From Merdimmobilis hominis (GTDB taxonomy: Bacteria > Bacillota > Clostridia > Oscillospirales > Ruminococcaceae): 44,992 bases of DNA. The stretch lies in contig NZ_LT629939.1 in the NCBI RefSeq assembly GCF_900104615.1, positions 175,251 through 220,242 of the forward strand, in the 5' to 3' direction. Below the pieces are notes generated by a model. The model was not told the origin of the DNA and did not search any database. It worked only from the letters and a program-made list of their open reading frames with translations. Both the position numbers and the translations under genes were made by a program. Every line of letters begins with the position of its first letter. Position 1 is the first letter of the stretch. Below, in pieces: positions 21,840 through 27,261 of the stretch.

Positions 21840-21857
21840 AGTCTCGACAATAAAACC

Positions 21858-21941
21858 GCAAGGGGTGCTGATTTTCGGCTGAGAGCGGGCTTATGGCCTG
21901 TAACCCTGAACCTGATCCGGATAATGCCGGCGGAGGGATGC
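21858..21941 (+). promoter_or_regulatory. TPP riboswitch (THI element)
   Basis: The conserved THI-box parts are in order: GGGGTGC, GGCTGAGAG, ACCCTGAACCTGATCCGGAT, AATGCCGGCGGAGGGA. Closing pairs GCA (21858-21860) and TGC (21939-21941) end the P1 helix. High thiamine pyrophosphate should favour the terminator hairpin at 21986-22019 and switch off the downstream transporter. A further GC-rich hairpin (about 21951-21973) lies between them. Confidence 0.96.
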
Positions 21942-21985
21942 TGCACAATGCTGTGGGGGCCTGCCCCCAACAGATGCTGTATGAT

Positions 21986-22048: not shown

Positions 22049-22348
22049 ATGCCAAACGCAAGCGTAGCTATCCAAGTTGTTCCCAAAGTCATGGACGACG
22101 CCGAGACCATCCGCATTGTGGATGAGGTCATCGCCTACATCAAATCCACCGGCCTCACCACCTTTGTCGGCCCCTTTGAGACCGCCATTGAGGGGGACTA
22201 CGACCAATTGATGGAGATCGTCAAAAACTGCCAGCTCATCGCCGCCAAGGCGGGCGCCCCCGCGGTCAGCACCTATGTGCGGATCTCCTACCGGCCGGAA
22301 GGCGGTGTGTTGACCATTGACCAAAAAGTCACCAAGCACCATCAATAA
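22049..22348 (+). CDS. Thiamine-binding protein, MTH1187/YkoF family
   Basis: A 99-residue ferredoxin-fold protein of the MTH1187/YkoF-type thiamine-binding family (PF01910). It shows ASVAIQVVPK, the central GLTTFVGPFETAIEGDYDQL and a C-terminal beta strand (STYVRISYRP). Family members bind thiamine or its pyrimidine and are often fused or linked to ABC transporters. It follows the TPP riboswitch and overlaps the permease frame. AAGGAG lies 9-10 nt before ATG 22049. Cytoplasmic; probably a carrier or sensor for the imported pyrimidine. Confidence 0.9.
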   Translation: MPNASVAIQVVPKVMDDAETIRIVDEVIAYIKSTGLTTFVGPFETAIEGDYDQLMEIVKNCQLIAAKAGAPAVSTYVRISYRPEGGVLTIDQKVTKHHQ

Positions 22349-23099
22349 GGCCGCTCCCGGAGTGCTGATCGCCCTTCTTTTGGCCGTGTGGCAGGGGCTG
22401 TCCAGCCTGGGAGTGGTCCCCAAGTACATGCTGCCCTCCCCCGCTGATGTGGTCAAGGCCTTTTTTGCCGATTTTCCCCTTCTGGTCAGCCACTCCAAGA
22501 CCACCCTGGCCGAGGCCGCCCTCGGTCTCTCCTGCGCCATCTTCCTGGCCTTTGTGGTCGCCTTCTTTATGGACCGCTACTCCCTGCTGCGGCGAGCGGT
22601 TTATCCCCTCTTAGTGGTGAGCCAGACGGTTCCCACCGTTGCCATCGCCCCCCTGCTCATCCTTTGGCTGGGGTATGGCATCGCCCCCAAGGTGGTGCTC
22701 ATTGTCATCACCTGCTTTTTCCCCATGGCCATCGGATTGCTGGAGGGGTTTTCCTCCGCCGATCCGGACACCATCAACCTGATGCGGGCTATGGGCAGCA
22801 CCCAGAACCAGATTTTCCGGTACGTCAAGTTCCCCTCTGCCCTGCGGCAGTTCTTTGCCAGCCTGAAAATCGCCGCCTCCTACTCGGTGGTGGGGGCGGT
22901 CATCTCCGAATGGCTGGGCGGCATGGAGGGCCTGGGGGTCTACATGACCCGGGTCAAAAAATCCTATTCCTTTGACAAAATGTTCGCGGTGATCTTTTTG
23001 ATCTCCGCCATCAGCCTTCTGCTGATGAAGGCCATCGACCTGCTGCAAAAGAAGGCCACGCCTTGGGACAACCTGCGCCAGCAGGAACAAGAATTATAA
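22317..23099 (+). CDS. thiX: ABC transporter permease for thiamine precursor (ThiX-like)
   Basis: A permease of about 260 residues with five to six membrane segments of the NitT/TauT type (SsuC/ThiX). The EAA-type loop lies near GLLEGFSSADPDTINLMRAMGS, then PSALRQFFASLKIAASYSVVGAV. It is predicted to form the membrane channel for hydroxymethylpyrimidine or formylaminopyrimidine uptake. The start is uncertain: TTG 22317 is used, with GGAAGGCGG 11-12 nt upstream, overlapping the previous gene by 32 nt; a later in-frame start (GTG near 22361) would remove part of the N-terminus. Confidence 0.9.
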   Translation: MTKKSPSTINKAAPGVLIALLLAVWQGLSSLGVVPKYMLPSPADVVKAFFADFPLLVSHSKTTLAEAALGLSCAIFLAFVVAFFMDRYSLLRRAVYPLLVVSQTVPTVAIAPLLILWLGYGIAPKVVLIVITCFFPMAIGLLEGFSSADPDTINLMRAMGSTQNQIFRYVKFPSALRQFFASLKIAASYSVVGAVISEWLGGMEGLGVYMTRVKKSYSFDKMFAVIFLISAISLLLMKAIDLLQKKATPWDNLRQQEQEL

Positions 23100-23111
23100 G
23101 GAGAATTGTAT

Positions 23112-24116
23112 ATGAAACGGATACTTGCAGCCATCCTTGCGGCTGGGCTGGCCCTTTCCCTCACCGCCTGCGGCGGGAACGGCAATTCCAGTTCCTCCGG
23201 CGAGGGGGAATCCCTCAAAGAGATCACCTTCTGCCTGGATTGGACCCCCAACACCAACCACACCGGCCTCTACGCCGCCCAGGCCCTGGGCTATTATGAG
23301 GAAGCCGGCCTGAAGGTGGAGTTTGTCCAGCCCCCGGAAGATGGAGCTCCCGCCCTGGTGGCCTCGGGCAAAGCCCAGTTCGGCATCAACGCCCAGGACA
23401 CTATCGCCCCCGCCCTCATCGGCGACGCCGCCCTGCCGGTCACCGCAGTGGCGGCCATTGTCCAGCACAACACCAGCGGCATCCTCACCCTGAGCGGAAA
23501 AGGGGTTGACCGTCCCAAAGGGCTGGAAGGCCGCACCTACGCCACCTGGCAGAACCCAGTGGAACAGGCCATGATGCGGTACTGCGTGGAAAAAGACGGC
23601 GGGGATTTCTCCAAGGTCAACCTGGTGCCCAGCACCCCCACGGATGTCCTCACCAGCTTGCAGACCAACGTGGACTCCATCTGGGTGTTCTACGGCTGGG
23701 ATGGCATCGCCGCGGAAGTGAAGGGCATCGATATGGATTACTGGGCATTTTCCGACATTGAGCCCACCTTTGACTACTACACCCCAGTGATCCTGGCGAA
23801 CAACGCCTTCCTCCAAGAGGACCCCGAGACGGCAAAAGCGTTCCTGGCCGCCACCCGCAAAGGGTATGAATACGCCATCGCCAACCCCAGGGAAGCTGCC
23901 GACTTCCTGCTGGCAGCCAGCCCAGAGCTGGACAAAGATCTGGTTTACGCCAGCCAGGAATACCTCTCCGCCCAGTATCAGGCGGACGCGGAAGCTTGGG
24001 GGGTCATCGACCCCGCCCGCTGGGACGGCTTCTATCAGTGGCTGTGGGACAACCAGCTGCTGGAGGAGGAAATCCCCGCCGGAACTGGGTACTCCAACGA
24101 CTACCTTCCCCAGTAG
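23112..24116 (+). CDS. thiY: Substrate-binding lipoprotein, NMT1/THI5-like (ThiY)
   Basis: A 334-residue exported lipoprotein with signal peptide MKRILAAILAAGLALSLTAC and a lipobox (LTAC, Cys about residue 20). The mature part is the NMT1/THI5-like fold: ITFCLDWTPNTNHTGLYAAQ, then EAGLKVEFVQPPEDGAPALVA split by the usual loops. Family members bind pyrimidine precursors of thiamine such as N-formyl-4-amino-5-aminomethyl-2-methylpyrimidine. AAGGAG lies before ATG 23112. Position in a TPP-controlled operon supports the precursor role; the exact ligand is inferred. Confidence 0.92.
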   Translation: MKRILAAILAAGLALSLTACGGNGNSSSSGEGESLKEITFCLDWTPNTNHTGLYAAQALGYYEEAGLKVEFVQPPEDGAPALVASGKAQFGINAQDTIAPALIGDAALPVTAVAAIVQHNTSGILTLSGKGVDRPKGLEGRTYATWQNPVEQAMMRYCVEKDGGDFSKVNLVPSTPTDVLTSLQTNVDSIWVFYGWDGIAAEVKGIDMDYWAFSDIEPTFDYYTPVILANNAFLQEDPETAKAFLAATRKGYEYAIANPREAADFLLAASPELDKDLVYASQEYLSAQYQADAEAWGVIDPARWDGFYQWLWDNQLLEEEIPAGTGYSNDYLPQ

Positions 24117-25200: not shown

Positions 25201-26547
25201 TTATTCCACCTGGAACTGCTTCCACCGCCCCATTTTCAGATAGATAAGCCCAAAGATCAGCGAGGTGGAGGATGCCAGCGGCGCAGCCAGCCCAATGCCG
25301 CTGAGGCTTCCCGGAATGTATCGGCTTAGGAAATAAGCGAGGGGCACACGAACCATTAACGTGGAAAAAAGGCCATTTGCCATCGAGAACACCGTGCGCC
25401 CACAGCCATTGAAAAAGCCGTTCATGCAGAATACAAAGGCCACCAGCAGATAGTCGATGGAGAAGGTTCGCATATATGCAATTCCGGCGGCAGTTACCTG
25501 CGGGTCCGCTTTGAAGATGTGCAGCACCGACTGCGGGGCCAGCTGTACCCACAAAAAGAAGAGGAACCCGCATCCCAAGGCCATGGAAATGGCGATAAGC
25601 AGGGATTTTTTTGCCCGATCCGGTTGTCCGGCCCCCATGTTTTGGGCTGTGAGGGCGGAAATCGCCCCGGAAAATGCCGTAGCGGGCAGCATGGCGAAGT
25701 TGGTGAACTTGCCGGCAATGCCCACCGCTGCCGAGGTGATCACCCCCAACGAGTTGACAATGGCCGCGATGAACAAAAAGGACACGCTGACCATCGATTC
25801 CTGCAAGGAAACCGGCAGACCAATTTTCAGCAGTTTCAATGCCTTATCCTTGTACATGTGGAAGCTTTGCAGCTTAAAGTCAAAGATAAAATCCCGCCGG
25901 GTCAGGTAGAGGATGGCCAAGCACATGCTCACCGCCTGGGAGAGGATGGTGGCCAGCGCCGCGCCGGCTGGGCCCATCCCCATGCCGCCGACCATAAGAA
26001 GATCCAGGGCAATGTTGGTCAGGCAGGCGATGGAGATAAAGAGGAGAGGACTTTTAGAGTCCCCTAGCCCCCGCAGCATGGCGCTGATGGCGTTGTAGCC
26101 AAAGATAAACAGGATGCCGCAGGAGGCAATCCGCACATAGGAGAGGGCCTGTTCGAAGGCCTCCGGCGGGGTTTGCAGCAGCGATAAAACCCAAGGGGCA
26201 CACAAAAACATCACTGCCGTGAAACCCACCCCCGCCGCAGCGAACATGGTCAGCATGGTGCTGATGGTCTCCTTGGTGTCTTTTTCCAGTTTGGCGCCGA
26301 AATATTGGGCGATCAGAATGGTGCCGCCCATGGTGAGGCCGGATACCATGCTGGTGACAATCTGCATCACTTGGCTGCCCACCGACACCGCTGAAATACC
26401 CGCCGAATTGGCAAACCATCCCACCACCGCCATATCCACCGCGCCGTACAGCGCCTGGACAAAGTTGGCGATCAGATAAGGGATGGCAAAGGTGATCAGC
26501 CGGCGGCCGATGCTGCCCTCGGTCAAATTGCTGCTGTTGTTCTCCAC
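25201..26547 (-). CDS. MATE family efflux transporter (MepA-like)
   Basis: A 448-residue twelve-helix MATE transporter. The first helix region (ITFAIPYLIANFVQALYGAVD) and MAVVGWFANSAGISAVSVG are typical of MepA-type pumps in Clostridia, and the second half repeats the pattern (GLPVSLQESMVSVSFLFIA). GTG 26547 is preferred as start because AAAGGCGG lies 7 nt before it; the frame runs open another 82 codons through the leader, which encodes nothing recognisable. The leader has a strong promoter and a hairpin terminator before the gene, so expression is probably controlled by attenuation (see separate entries). Confidence 0.92.
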   Translation of the reverse strand: MENNSSNLTEGSIGRRLITFAIPYLIANFVQALYGAVDMAVVGWFANSAGISAVSVGSQVMQIVTSMVSGLTMGGTILIAQYFGAKLEKDTKETISTMLTMFAAAGVGFTAVMFLCAPWVLSLLQTPPEAFEQALSYVRIASCGILFIFGYNAISAMLRGLGDSKSPLLFISIACLTNIALDLLMVGGMGMGPAGAALATILSQAVSMCLAILYLTRRDFIFDFKLQSFHMYKDKALKLLKIGLPVSLQESMVSVSFLFIAAIVNSLGVITSAAVGIAGKFTNFAMLPATAFSGAISALTAQNMGAGQPDRAKKSLLIAISMALGCGFLFFLWVQLAPQSVLHIFKADPQVTAAGIAYMRTFSIDYLLVAFVFCMNGFFNGCGRTVFSMANGLFSTLMVRVPLAYFLSRYIPGSLSGIGLAAPLASSTSLIFGLIYLKMGRWKQFQVE

Positions 26548-26611
26548 AGGGAGCCCGCCTTTCTTCCATACAATCTTTTGGGAGGGAAGCATGGCATTTG
26601 AAGCTATCCAC

Positions 26612-26703
26612 ACAAAAAAAGCTGGATAAGAATCAACCGCGGTCGATCTCTTATCCAGCACAAATCCGTCTGCTATCGCATGAGGACTCCTACCCTCCGA
26701 GTG
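26612..26703 (-). promoter_or_regulatory. Candidate riboswitch leader of MATE gene (possibly guanidine-IV / mepA type)
   Basis: About 90 nt of leader between the promoter and a hairpin terminator. The minus-strand RNA carries GGAGGGTAGGAGTCCTC (a stem GAGG/CCTC with loop GTAGGAGT), then TGCGATAGCA (a three-pair stem with loop GATA), then GACGGA, then the terminator stem. A compact aptamer followed by a U-tract hairpin before a MATE gene is the context of the guanidine-IV (mepA) switch. I cannot check the consensus, so the class is inference; attenuation itself is better supported. Confidence 0.5.
26614..26659 (-). terminator. Leader terminator / attenuator of MATE gene
   Basis: GCTGGATAAGA (26621-26631) is a perfect 11-bp inverse of TCTTATCCAGC (26649-26659). 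On the minus strand the hairpin is followed by seven U (A's 26614-26620). It lies about 45-110 nt downstream of the promoter and 67 nt before the MATE start codon. Confidence 0.87.
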
Positions 26704-26709
26704 AAATTC

Positions 26710-26739
26710 AGTATACCATTTTTCGCCGGGAATTGTCAA
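26710..26739 (-). promoter_or_regulatory. Promoter of MATE gene leader
   Basis: On the minus strand, TTGACA (26734-26739), 18-nt spacer, TATACT (26710-26715). Transcription would begin near 26703. Confidence 0.82.
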
Positions 26740-26782
26740 GGAACAGAGAGTTTCTCCTTCCGACAACCTTATAGAAAAAGCG

Positions 26783-26811
26783 TTGCGGCACATGCTCCAT
26801 TGTGGTATTAT
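26783..26811 (+). promoter_or_regulatory. Promoter of nucleotidyltransferase-domain gene
   Basis: TTGCGG (26783-26788), 17-nt spacer, TATTAT (26806-26811), about 37 nt before the GTG start. It diverges from the MATE promoter. Confidence 0.7.
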
Positions 26812-26847
26812 TTCATCTATATCATTCTATGGGCTGGAGGGCTTTTT

Positions 26848-27261
26848 GTGGAAAAATTGTTACAGGATATCAAACAATGGGCGCAAAATCACCCAAAAAT
26901 TGAGGGGGTTATTCTCGTTGGGTCTTGTGCGCGGGGCGATCACAAAGATGATTCTGACATCGACCTAGTCCTCCTCACCCCCAGCAAGGAGGATTTTCTT
27001 CAAAACCAGGCATTCACAGAGCAGTTTGGGACTGTAGCACGCCGCCAGACCGAGTATTATGGGGCCTGCACCTCCATCCGCGTGTGGTATGAAGGCGGGC
27101 CGGAAGTGGAGTTTGGCCTTGTAGAACCGTCGTGGATCGCCCGCCCTTTGGATGCGGGGACAATGCAGGTATTACAGGGAGGGTATCGGGTGATTTTGGA
27201 TAAAAAGCAGCGGTTTCCATCTTGTGTTCCCCCACCCTATACAAGTCCCTTCAACAAATAG
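26848..27261 (+). CDS. Nucleotidyltransferase-domain protein
   Basis: A 137-residue protein of the Pol-beta/MNT-like nucleotidyltransferase superfamily. The signature GSCARGDHKDDSDIDLVL (residues 25-42) carries the GSxxRG motif and both acidic residues of DxD (D37, D39); a third acidic strand, EVEFGLVE, follows near residue 95. Proteins of this size may be antitoxin-type (MNT) or aminoglycoside-nucleotidyltransferase-like; there is no HEPN partner beside it, so neither is supported. GTG 26848 has GGAGG 7 nt upstream. Single-gene transcript with a perfect-palindrome terminator overlapping its stop codon. Confidence 0.85.
   Translation: MEKLLQDIKQWAQNHPKIEGVILVGSCARGDHKDDSDIDLVLLTPSKEDFLQNQAFTEQFGTVARRQTEYYGACTSIRVWYEGGPEVEFGLVEPSWIARPLDAGTMQVLQGGYRVILDKKQRFPSCVPPPYTSPFNK

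Follow-up and report, generated by a model that had tools for sequence, protein, structure and literature searches.

The guanidine-IV riboswitch and its Gd4v variant consist, according to passages of the published descriptions, of two hairpins that are joined by a pseudoknot and carry highly conserved loop nucleotides (PMC7736828, PMC9788692, PMC11611296); in guanidine-IV, hairpin 1 forms the pseudoknot with the terminator hairpin (PMC7736828, PMC9788692). In the same passages, the most common gene of guanidine-IV is sugE/Gdx, over half of the Gd4v representatives precede a transaminase gene (PRK07324), and MATE genes are reported for both (PMC7736828, PMC9788692). Gd4v is described as enriched in gut samples, as carrying a hairpin atop its terminator and, by proposal, as an ON-switch (parts of PMC9788692). 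In the HMP-PP riboswitch (thiS motif), a very small aptamer is located nearly wholly inside the intrinsic terminator stem (passages of PMC6478431). The leader analysed here, upstream of a MATE efflux transporter gene of Merdimmobilis hominis, shares this compact arrangement with HMP-PP, from which it differs by its efflux-type transporter genes and by the lack of a threshold match in Rfam 15, a collection that may not hold HMP-PP. With guanidine-IV and Gd4v, it has in common the putative layout of a transcriptional ON-switch with a terminator and MATE genes among those controlled; in contrast to the two pseudoknotted hairpins with conserved loops in the passages on these classes, it has a single hairpin with a conserved internal loop. 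The leader is a conserved RNA switch for pump genes that is coupled to a terminator and has no match in Rfam 15; very probably it is a riboswitch.

The window, i.e. the whole stretch of DNA analysed, comprises 44,992 nt of M. hominis contig NZ_LT629939.1 (assembly GCF_900104615.1, positions 175,251-220,242), and all elements of the locus lie on its minus strand. A sequence scan locates a sigma-70-type promoter at 26710-26739: TTGACA (26739-26734) and TATACT (26715-26710) are separated by an 18-nt spacer, agree with the consensus in 11 of 12 bases and are complemented by a TG before the -10 element. At most ~10 nt past the promoter follows CUCGGAGGGUAG, then a stem, GUGCUGGAUAAGA, a second stem and UCUUAUCCAGC-U7, behind which the MATE gene is located (25201-26547; TIGR00797, 223.8 bits at a cut-off of 147.4; PF01554). 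The leader thus measures ~155 nt from the presumable transcription start near 26702 to the proposed GTG start codon at 26547. In its 11-bp terminator, GCTGGATAAGA (26659-26649) pairs with TCTTATCCAGC (26631-26621), followed by seven T (26620-26614). The first-pass annotation of this DNA had pointed out the strong promoter, the RNA of ~155 nt, the perfect terminator with seven U and the MATE gene, all of which are confirmed. The transporter is not of the MepA type: its score against the MepA model is 41.8 bits at a cut-off of 850. The terminator was missed by an automated scan, apparently because its loop exceeds the 3-8 nt allowed. The folding energy of the leader, -36.1 kcal/mol, lies well below the mean of dinucleotide shuffles (-23.2 kcal/mol; z -4.0) and is equalled by none of 200 shuffles. 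The leader is single-copy in its genome, yet the genome has 29 MatE-domain matches (~15 genes by manual grouping). Adjoining the leader, a divergent gene on the plus strand (26824-27258) encodes a nucleotidyltransferase domain, which additionally has a match to streptomycin adenylyltransferase (PF04439, 37.6 bits).

Homologous leaders were retrieved through the MATE protein, by sequence patterns and by two RNA models, R1 (three rows, one of them the window) and R2 (30 rows). Among 13 loci related by MATE protein, L010 and L011, the latter from a Marvinbryantia MAG, carry the same leader (62 and 69% protein identity); in the remaining 11 (40-48% identity), it was found neither by reading nor by R2 at E ≤0.1. 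The leaders of the window, L010 and L011 have UCGGAGGGUAG, UGCUGGAUAAGA and UUAUCC in common, and the stem between UCGGAGGGUAG and UGCUGGAUAAGA differs in sequence among the three while its pairing is kept. The MATE reading frame is open across the whole leader in the window (25201-26793, minus strand; an ORF of 530 aa), which was judged incidental; by eye, it is likewise open from an ATG in L010, and it is not open in L011. A pattern search of 396 genomes gave five matches, two of them true leaders (the window and L023, which is identical to L011) and three that look by eye like one coding sequence. In 391 genomes of the class, eight stretches matched, of which six were not leaders; besides the window, L087 was true, a fourth leader that precedes another kind of MATE protein and scores 40.8 bits with R1.

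With R1, 12 of 40 genomes of the L087 family had a match at E ≤0.5, of which nine were accepted and three discarded by eye; in the window's order, 24 of 295 genomes matched at E ≤0.1, with 22 accepted and two dropped. R2 yielded accepted leaders in 13 of 331 class genomes (31 at E ≤0.01, the 18 weaker ones uncounted) and in only four of 329 phylum genomes (17 at E ≤0.01, 13 uncounted). These genome draws overlap, and all except the 40-genome family draw contain the window's own genome. Discarded by eye were L223-L227, L250 and L251, which are devoid of the 5' element or the terminator, as well as L252, a reverse-strand echo of the L232 terminator. The uncounted matches (L277-L293, L297-L309) mostly have E-values above 1e-4 and were mostly left unread (including L277, L281 and L298); L297 was read and rejected as a leader. 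Including the window, 49 leaders are distributed over at least 20 genome families of its phylum (f1, f11, f13, f14, f16, f24, f35, f39, f41, f42, f43, f50, f51, f59, f64, f69, f74, f78, f135 and f165), whereby loci do not count as independent events because some are near relatives (L216/L217/L218/L220; L240/L244; L295/L296). A promoter-like pair is positioned at most 55 nt upstream in 43 of 48 leaders (all but L275, by the same rule as in the window), compared to 2.7 on average and at most 7 of 48 in base-shuffled upstream stretches. In viral contigs (58 and at least 120 pattern-matched stretches), no such leader was seen among the matches listed that passed the T-run filter.

Known RNA families do not account for the motif. 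In a scan of the whole window against Rfam 15 at thresholds, the sole match is a TPP riboswitch elsewhere (21851-21955, plus strand, 70.2 bits); it precedes genes for an ABC permease (22320-23096) and for a binding protein of the NMT1/THI5-like type (23106-24113), which probably form an ordinary operon for the uptake of thiamine precursors. At the window leader, E ≤10 brought up three microRNA families and one plant-virus element, all far under threshold; the leaders of 20 further loci gave no match at E ≤1, and in nine more loci the only overlaps with a leader were in L268 (24.6 bits vs a threshold of 60 and 23.6 vs 97). None of the 30 leaders scanned (the window and 29 others) contains an Rfam 15 family at threshold, a collection that may hold no guanidine-IV model. 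Apart from the guanidine-IV papers, the motif does not appear in the titles and abstracts listed by literature searches on the motif, FMN aptamers and YeeO, which would miss a name confined to a supplement, and it is absent from the text passages seen of the 104-motif, 26-genome and 50-genome papers (PMC2864571, PMC8632094, PMC11109978).

The part common to the leaders is one hairpin (comparison of 32 leaders), which consists of a 4-bp helix PA, a nearly invariant internal loop GGAG/GGAUAA, a short helix P0 (GGY:GCY) and a variable hairpin P1, whose length and terminal loop vary freely. The whole motif, candidate aptamer plus terminator, extends over 26613-26705 in the window and scores 63.6 bits with R2 and 89.3 bits with R1, both of which include the window among their own rows. 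PA is formed by the four bases 5' of GGAGG and the four bases 3' of GGAUAA; in the window, CUC (26699-26701) pairs with GAG (26650-26648), as indicated by covariation and folding. The two strands of the internal loop, the putative ligand site, are GGAG (26695-26698), with 30 or 31 of the 32 leaders agreeing at each position, and GGAUAA (26651-26656), which also belongs to the 5' arm of the terminator; P0 (GGU:GCU) and P1 occupy 26657-26694 by alignment and folding. GGAUAA is identical in 32 of 32 leaders, a count that leans towards conservation because the parser anchor GG[A/C][T/C]AA fixed four of the six bases and the models carry GGATAA. Each base of GGAGG is the same in at least 30 of 32, with changes in L230, L247 and L248. 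The pyrimidines of GGY and GCY (A4 columns 14 and 49; 26692 and 26657 in the window) tend to match, T/T in 14 and C/C in 11 of 32 leaders; they do not pair together, and the tendency perhaps reflects a balance of strength between P0 and the terminator, perhaps shared ancestry.

Covariation is most evident in PA. The usual combination is CAUC:GAUG, and CAC(U)C:GGUG, UGC(N)C:GGCA, UUGC:GCAG and GGU(U)C:GACC occur as well; the window and L010 have ACUC or GCUC opposite GAGA and form three pairs only. When up to one bulged base was allowed, with equal freedom for the shuffles, 124 of 128 pairs were formed in 32 leaders, a value never reached when the 3' strands were reassigned 20,000 times, and 56 of 60 in the 15 distinct combinations (2/20,000). 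Without bulges, the values were 105/128 (0/20,000 as good) and 43/60 (15/20,000). The 10 distinct combinations besides GAUG gave 36/40 pairs (7/20,000 as good), or 19/40 (240/20,000) when only Watson-Crick pairs and no bulge were accepted. At one PA position, AU, CG, GC and UA pairs are all present. The 32 rows of this test were retrieved by R1, which covered only three bases of the 5' strand of PA and contained none of its pairs; L218, whose leader is the same as that of L217, is not among them. In the 30-row alignment A4 (L220 and L244 left out), 80.7% of the cells of PA, P0 and P1 are paired vs 69.9% in shuffles (0/500 as high) and 25-46% in slid registers; the padding of A4 ignores bulges, which should depress this count. 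Cells changed on both sides number 37 vs 15.2 in shuffles (0/500 as high). The homologous leaders support the first-pass reading of a transcription-controlling, riboswitch-like leader before a MATE gene insofar as covariation and the terminator are conserved among them. The two stem-loops it had named (GAGG/CCTC and TGC/GCA) and its GACGGA are not conserved: as text patterns, each is confined to the window among the 32 homologous leaders, and TGC/GCA is the inner portion of a larger stem specific to the window.

The terminator is the second conserved element. Its 5' arm GCUGGAUAAGA (26649-26659) overlaps P0, the internal loop and PA, whereas the 3' arm (26621-26631, from folding and terminator alignment) and the U7 tract (26614-26620) lie outside the hairpin. 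In the A4 rows, 98.7% of the cells of the terminator stem are paired and its third pair is exchanged from C-G to U-A in 10 rows; two-sided changes and pair types do not exceed those of shuffles (131 and 278 of 500). Counts of the terminator arms over 32 leaders include one misparsed row (L232). About half of the 32 leaders have UGARA or a similar sequence at the terminator tip (e.g. GGCUGARAYGCC); the window does not. The hairpin and the terminator exclude each other, because the 3' half of the hairpin, GCYGGAUAAG, is the 5' arm of the terminator. When the nascent window RNA is folded unconstrained at ten sampled lengths, the hairpin deduced by comparison appears at 56, 63, 68 and 73 nt; PA is lost at 77 nt, and the terminator is present at 81-89 nt. 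The unaided minimum-energy fold of the first part contains PA, P0 and an unpaired GGAUAA in 24 of 32 leaders, the other eight missing the full criterion, and full-length leaders form at least seven terminator pairs in 32 of 32. Since the terminator fold of the window lies far below the ON fold in energy (-36.1 vs -24.7 kcal/mol), a switch would need kinetic control.

One downstream ORF per leader, 49 in all, was matched to Pfam and NCBIfam: 46 of them fall into efflux-type families of transporters (40 MatE, five MFS_1 and one SMR in Pfam). The remaining three, which also have no NCBIfam match, should be those of L266, L235 and L272; by eye, a MATE-like frame starts right behind the leader of L266 and breaks early. 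The MATE proteins are diverse, with identities to that of the window down to 17%. Among the MFS genes, two have the Bcr/CflA efflux model as their best match, under its cut-off, and export is putative for the other three because their model matches are weak. The SMR ORF (80 aa) is closest to QAC-type models (68.4 bits; SugE, 35.6 bits), all below cut-offs. Genome G1099 harbours two leaders, which precede a Bcr/CflA-like gene and the SMR gene, respectively. Riboswitches commonly have aptamers in tandem, and aptamer-like tandem copies occur at four loci: in L295 and L296, an aptamer-only match (model positions 4-61 or 4-62, ~24 bits, E 0.003) is situated upstream of a degenerate second copy that carries the terminator, and in L275 and L310, two copies follow each other in series by eye, the second copy of L310 being degenerate. 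On the opposite strand, L295 (1750-1852, +) and L296 (1752-1851, +) contain a SAM riboswitch divergent from the tandem leader.

Computation thus establishes a conserved RNA with covariation in PA and P1, a conserved terminator that overlaps the hairpin, an association with transporters and tandem aptamer-like copies. The leader is likely to belong to a riboswitch class, so far uncatalogued, that works through transcription termination and acts as an ON switch for efflux pumps, in the following manner: The nascent RNA would first fold into one hairpin composed of PA, the GGAG/GGAUAA loop, P0 and P1. The internal loop may bind a ligand, most likely a toxic substance exported by the pumps, and the hairpin would be held in place; GCYGGAUAAG would then be sequestered, and the polymerase would read into the pump gene. 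When no ligand is bound, the 3' arm CUUAUCCRGC may invade and pair with GCYGGAUAAG, resulting in a stop at the U tract. Direct ligand binding by the leader RNA is presumed here, together with the ON polarity and the nature of the ligand. Three hallmarks of riboswitches are found: (i) a covarying, conserved structure in the 5' leader; (ii) an expression platform that excludes the aptamer fold, according to computed folds; and (iii) related genes from several non-homologous families (MATE, MFS and SMR). Counted against this reading are the much greater stability of the terminator fold, the three base pairs of PA in the window, the changes in GGAGG of L230, L247 and L248, the eight of 32 leaders that miss the fold and the occurrence in only four of 329 phylum genomes.

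A bound protein could take the place of the ligand. In protein antiterminator sites, a hairpin with a conserved internal loop shares sequence with the 5' arm of the terminator, and the leader hairpin is built in the same way as, for example, the RAT sites of LicT/BglG; these are bound by proteins and located beside sugar-uptake operons, whereas other genes are found here. In such a mechanism, a toxin-controlled RNA-binding protein on the internal loop would block the terminator, and the free variation of the terminal loop and of P1 length is possible under protein binding. A casual, non-systematic look at the neighbourhoods revealed no common regulator gene beside the leaders, and tandem aptamer-like copies together with several transporter families are judged to be more usual for riboswitches. 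Protein-dependent antitermination is regarded as an unlikely explanation.

Membership in guanidine-IV, proposed in the first-pass annotation as guanidine-IV (mepA), or in Gd4v is considerably less probable. Both are ON-switches acting through a terminator, for Gd4v by proposal, and both may precede MATE genes; gut samples are enriched in Gd4v, whose terminator is topped by a hairpin, according to parts of PMC9788692; an intrinsic terminator with the gene in cis is present here, too. The conserved, pseudoknotted loops of two hairpins in the published descriptions contrast with the variable P1 loop and terminator tip of the leader, whose conserved bases lie in the internal loop of a single hairpin and in the terminator stem. 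Among the 49 immediately downstream ORFs, there is no transaminase gene and no sugE, and the lone SMR gene is QAC-like. A route via SMR genes to genuine guanidine-IV leaders gave four of 69 genomes above the family cut-off, and R2 found nothing in the 11 loci L253-L263. Both classes were rejected on architecture and downstream genes, judged against the published passages; the leader is very probably not guanidine-IV.

Ribosome-mediated attenuation, in which a leader peptide MLDK...YPAFF would be translated through the terminator, was plausible on three sequences, because LDK follows a start codon in the window, L010 and L011, where the distance from GGATAA to TTATCC is a multiple of three; on 32 leaders it is rejected as highly improbable, since this distance spreads over all three frame classes (8, 15 and 9), and TG precedes C(C/T) in just 12 of 32. 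An ordinary terminator without regulation would fit the strength and conservation of the terminator, but it is disfavoured to the same degree because PA covaries: it needs no 5' element, no internal loop and no PA or P1 covariation, and in 43 of 48 leaders the element is placed between a promoter-like sequence and the gene. Two further pairings were dropped, an antiterminator of GGGUAG with UUAUCC of the terminator 3' arm, because PA was found to covary, and a kissing of the P1 loop with the terminator, which, spotted by eye in single sequences, proved inconsistent.

As to the ligand of the proposed riboswitch, aromatic cations, which are typical of QAC and MATE pumps, are as likely as a flavin-like compound, for which a lead is provided by the in-vitro-selected FMN aptamer. 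The latter has an 11-nt binding site, in which A11 is less important, and its internal loop can be read as AGGNUAU/AGAAGG (passages of PMC7756803). The loop of the leader, YGGAUAA/GGAGG, has the same topology and agrees by hand in eight of 10 specified bases of that published reading; it differs from the FMN aptamer, which is artificial, by a G in place of one A of the second strand, a pyrimidine in place of the flanking A and one extra A. The likeness may be due to chance, because the FMN aptamer is one of many known aptamers and its strands alone were checked in print. By this analogy, a natural, widespread ON-riboswitch might contain a counterpart of the FMN-aptamer site, with a flat, flavin-like or other aromatic compound stacking in GGAG/GGAUAA, an idea of low probability; the stacked compound would then induce the pumps by which it is expelled, of the MATE, Bcr/CflA-like and QAC types. 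In parts of a preprint, a human gut member of the Lachnospiraceae forms lumichrome from riboflavin anaerobically, and the E. coli MATE protein YeeO is cited as a flavin exporter (PMC12934955).

If the reading as a riboswitch is right, the leader defines a new class, present in at least 20 genome families, with a small candidate aptamer of ~30-60 nt that would activate pumps of three unrelated superfamilies. Its ligand, if found, would identify a toxin or metabolite naturally encountered by these bacteria and, at the same time, a substrate of pumps that are annotated merely as multidrug transporters.
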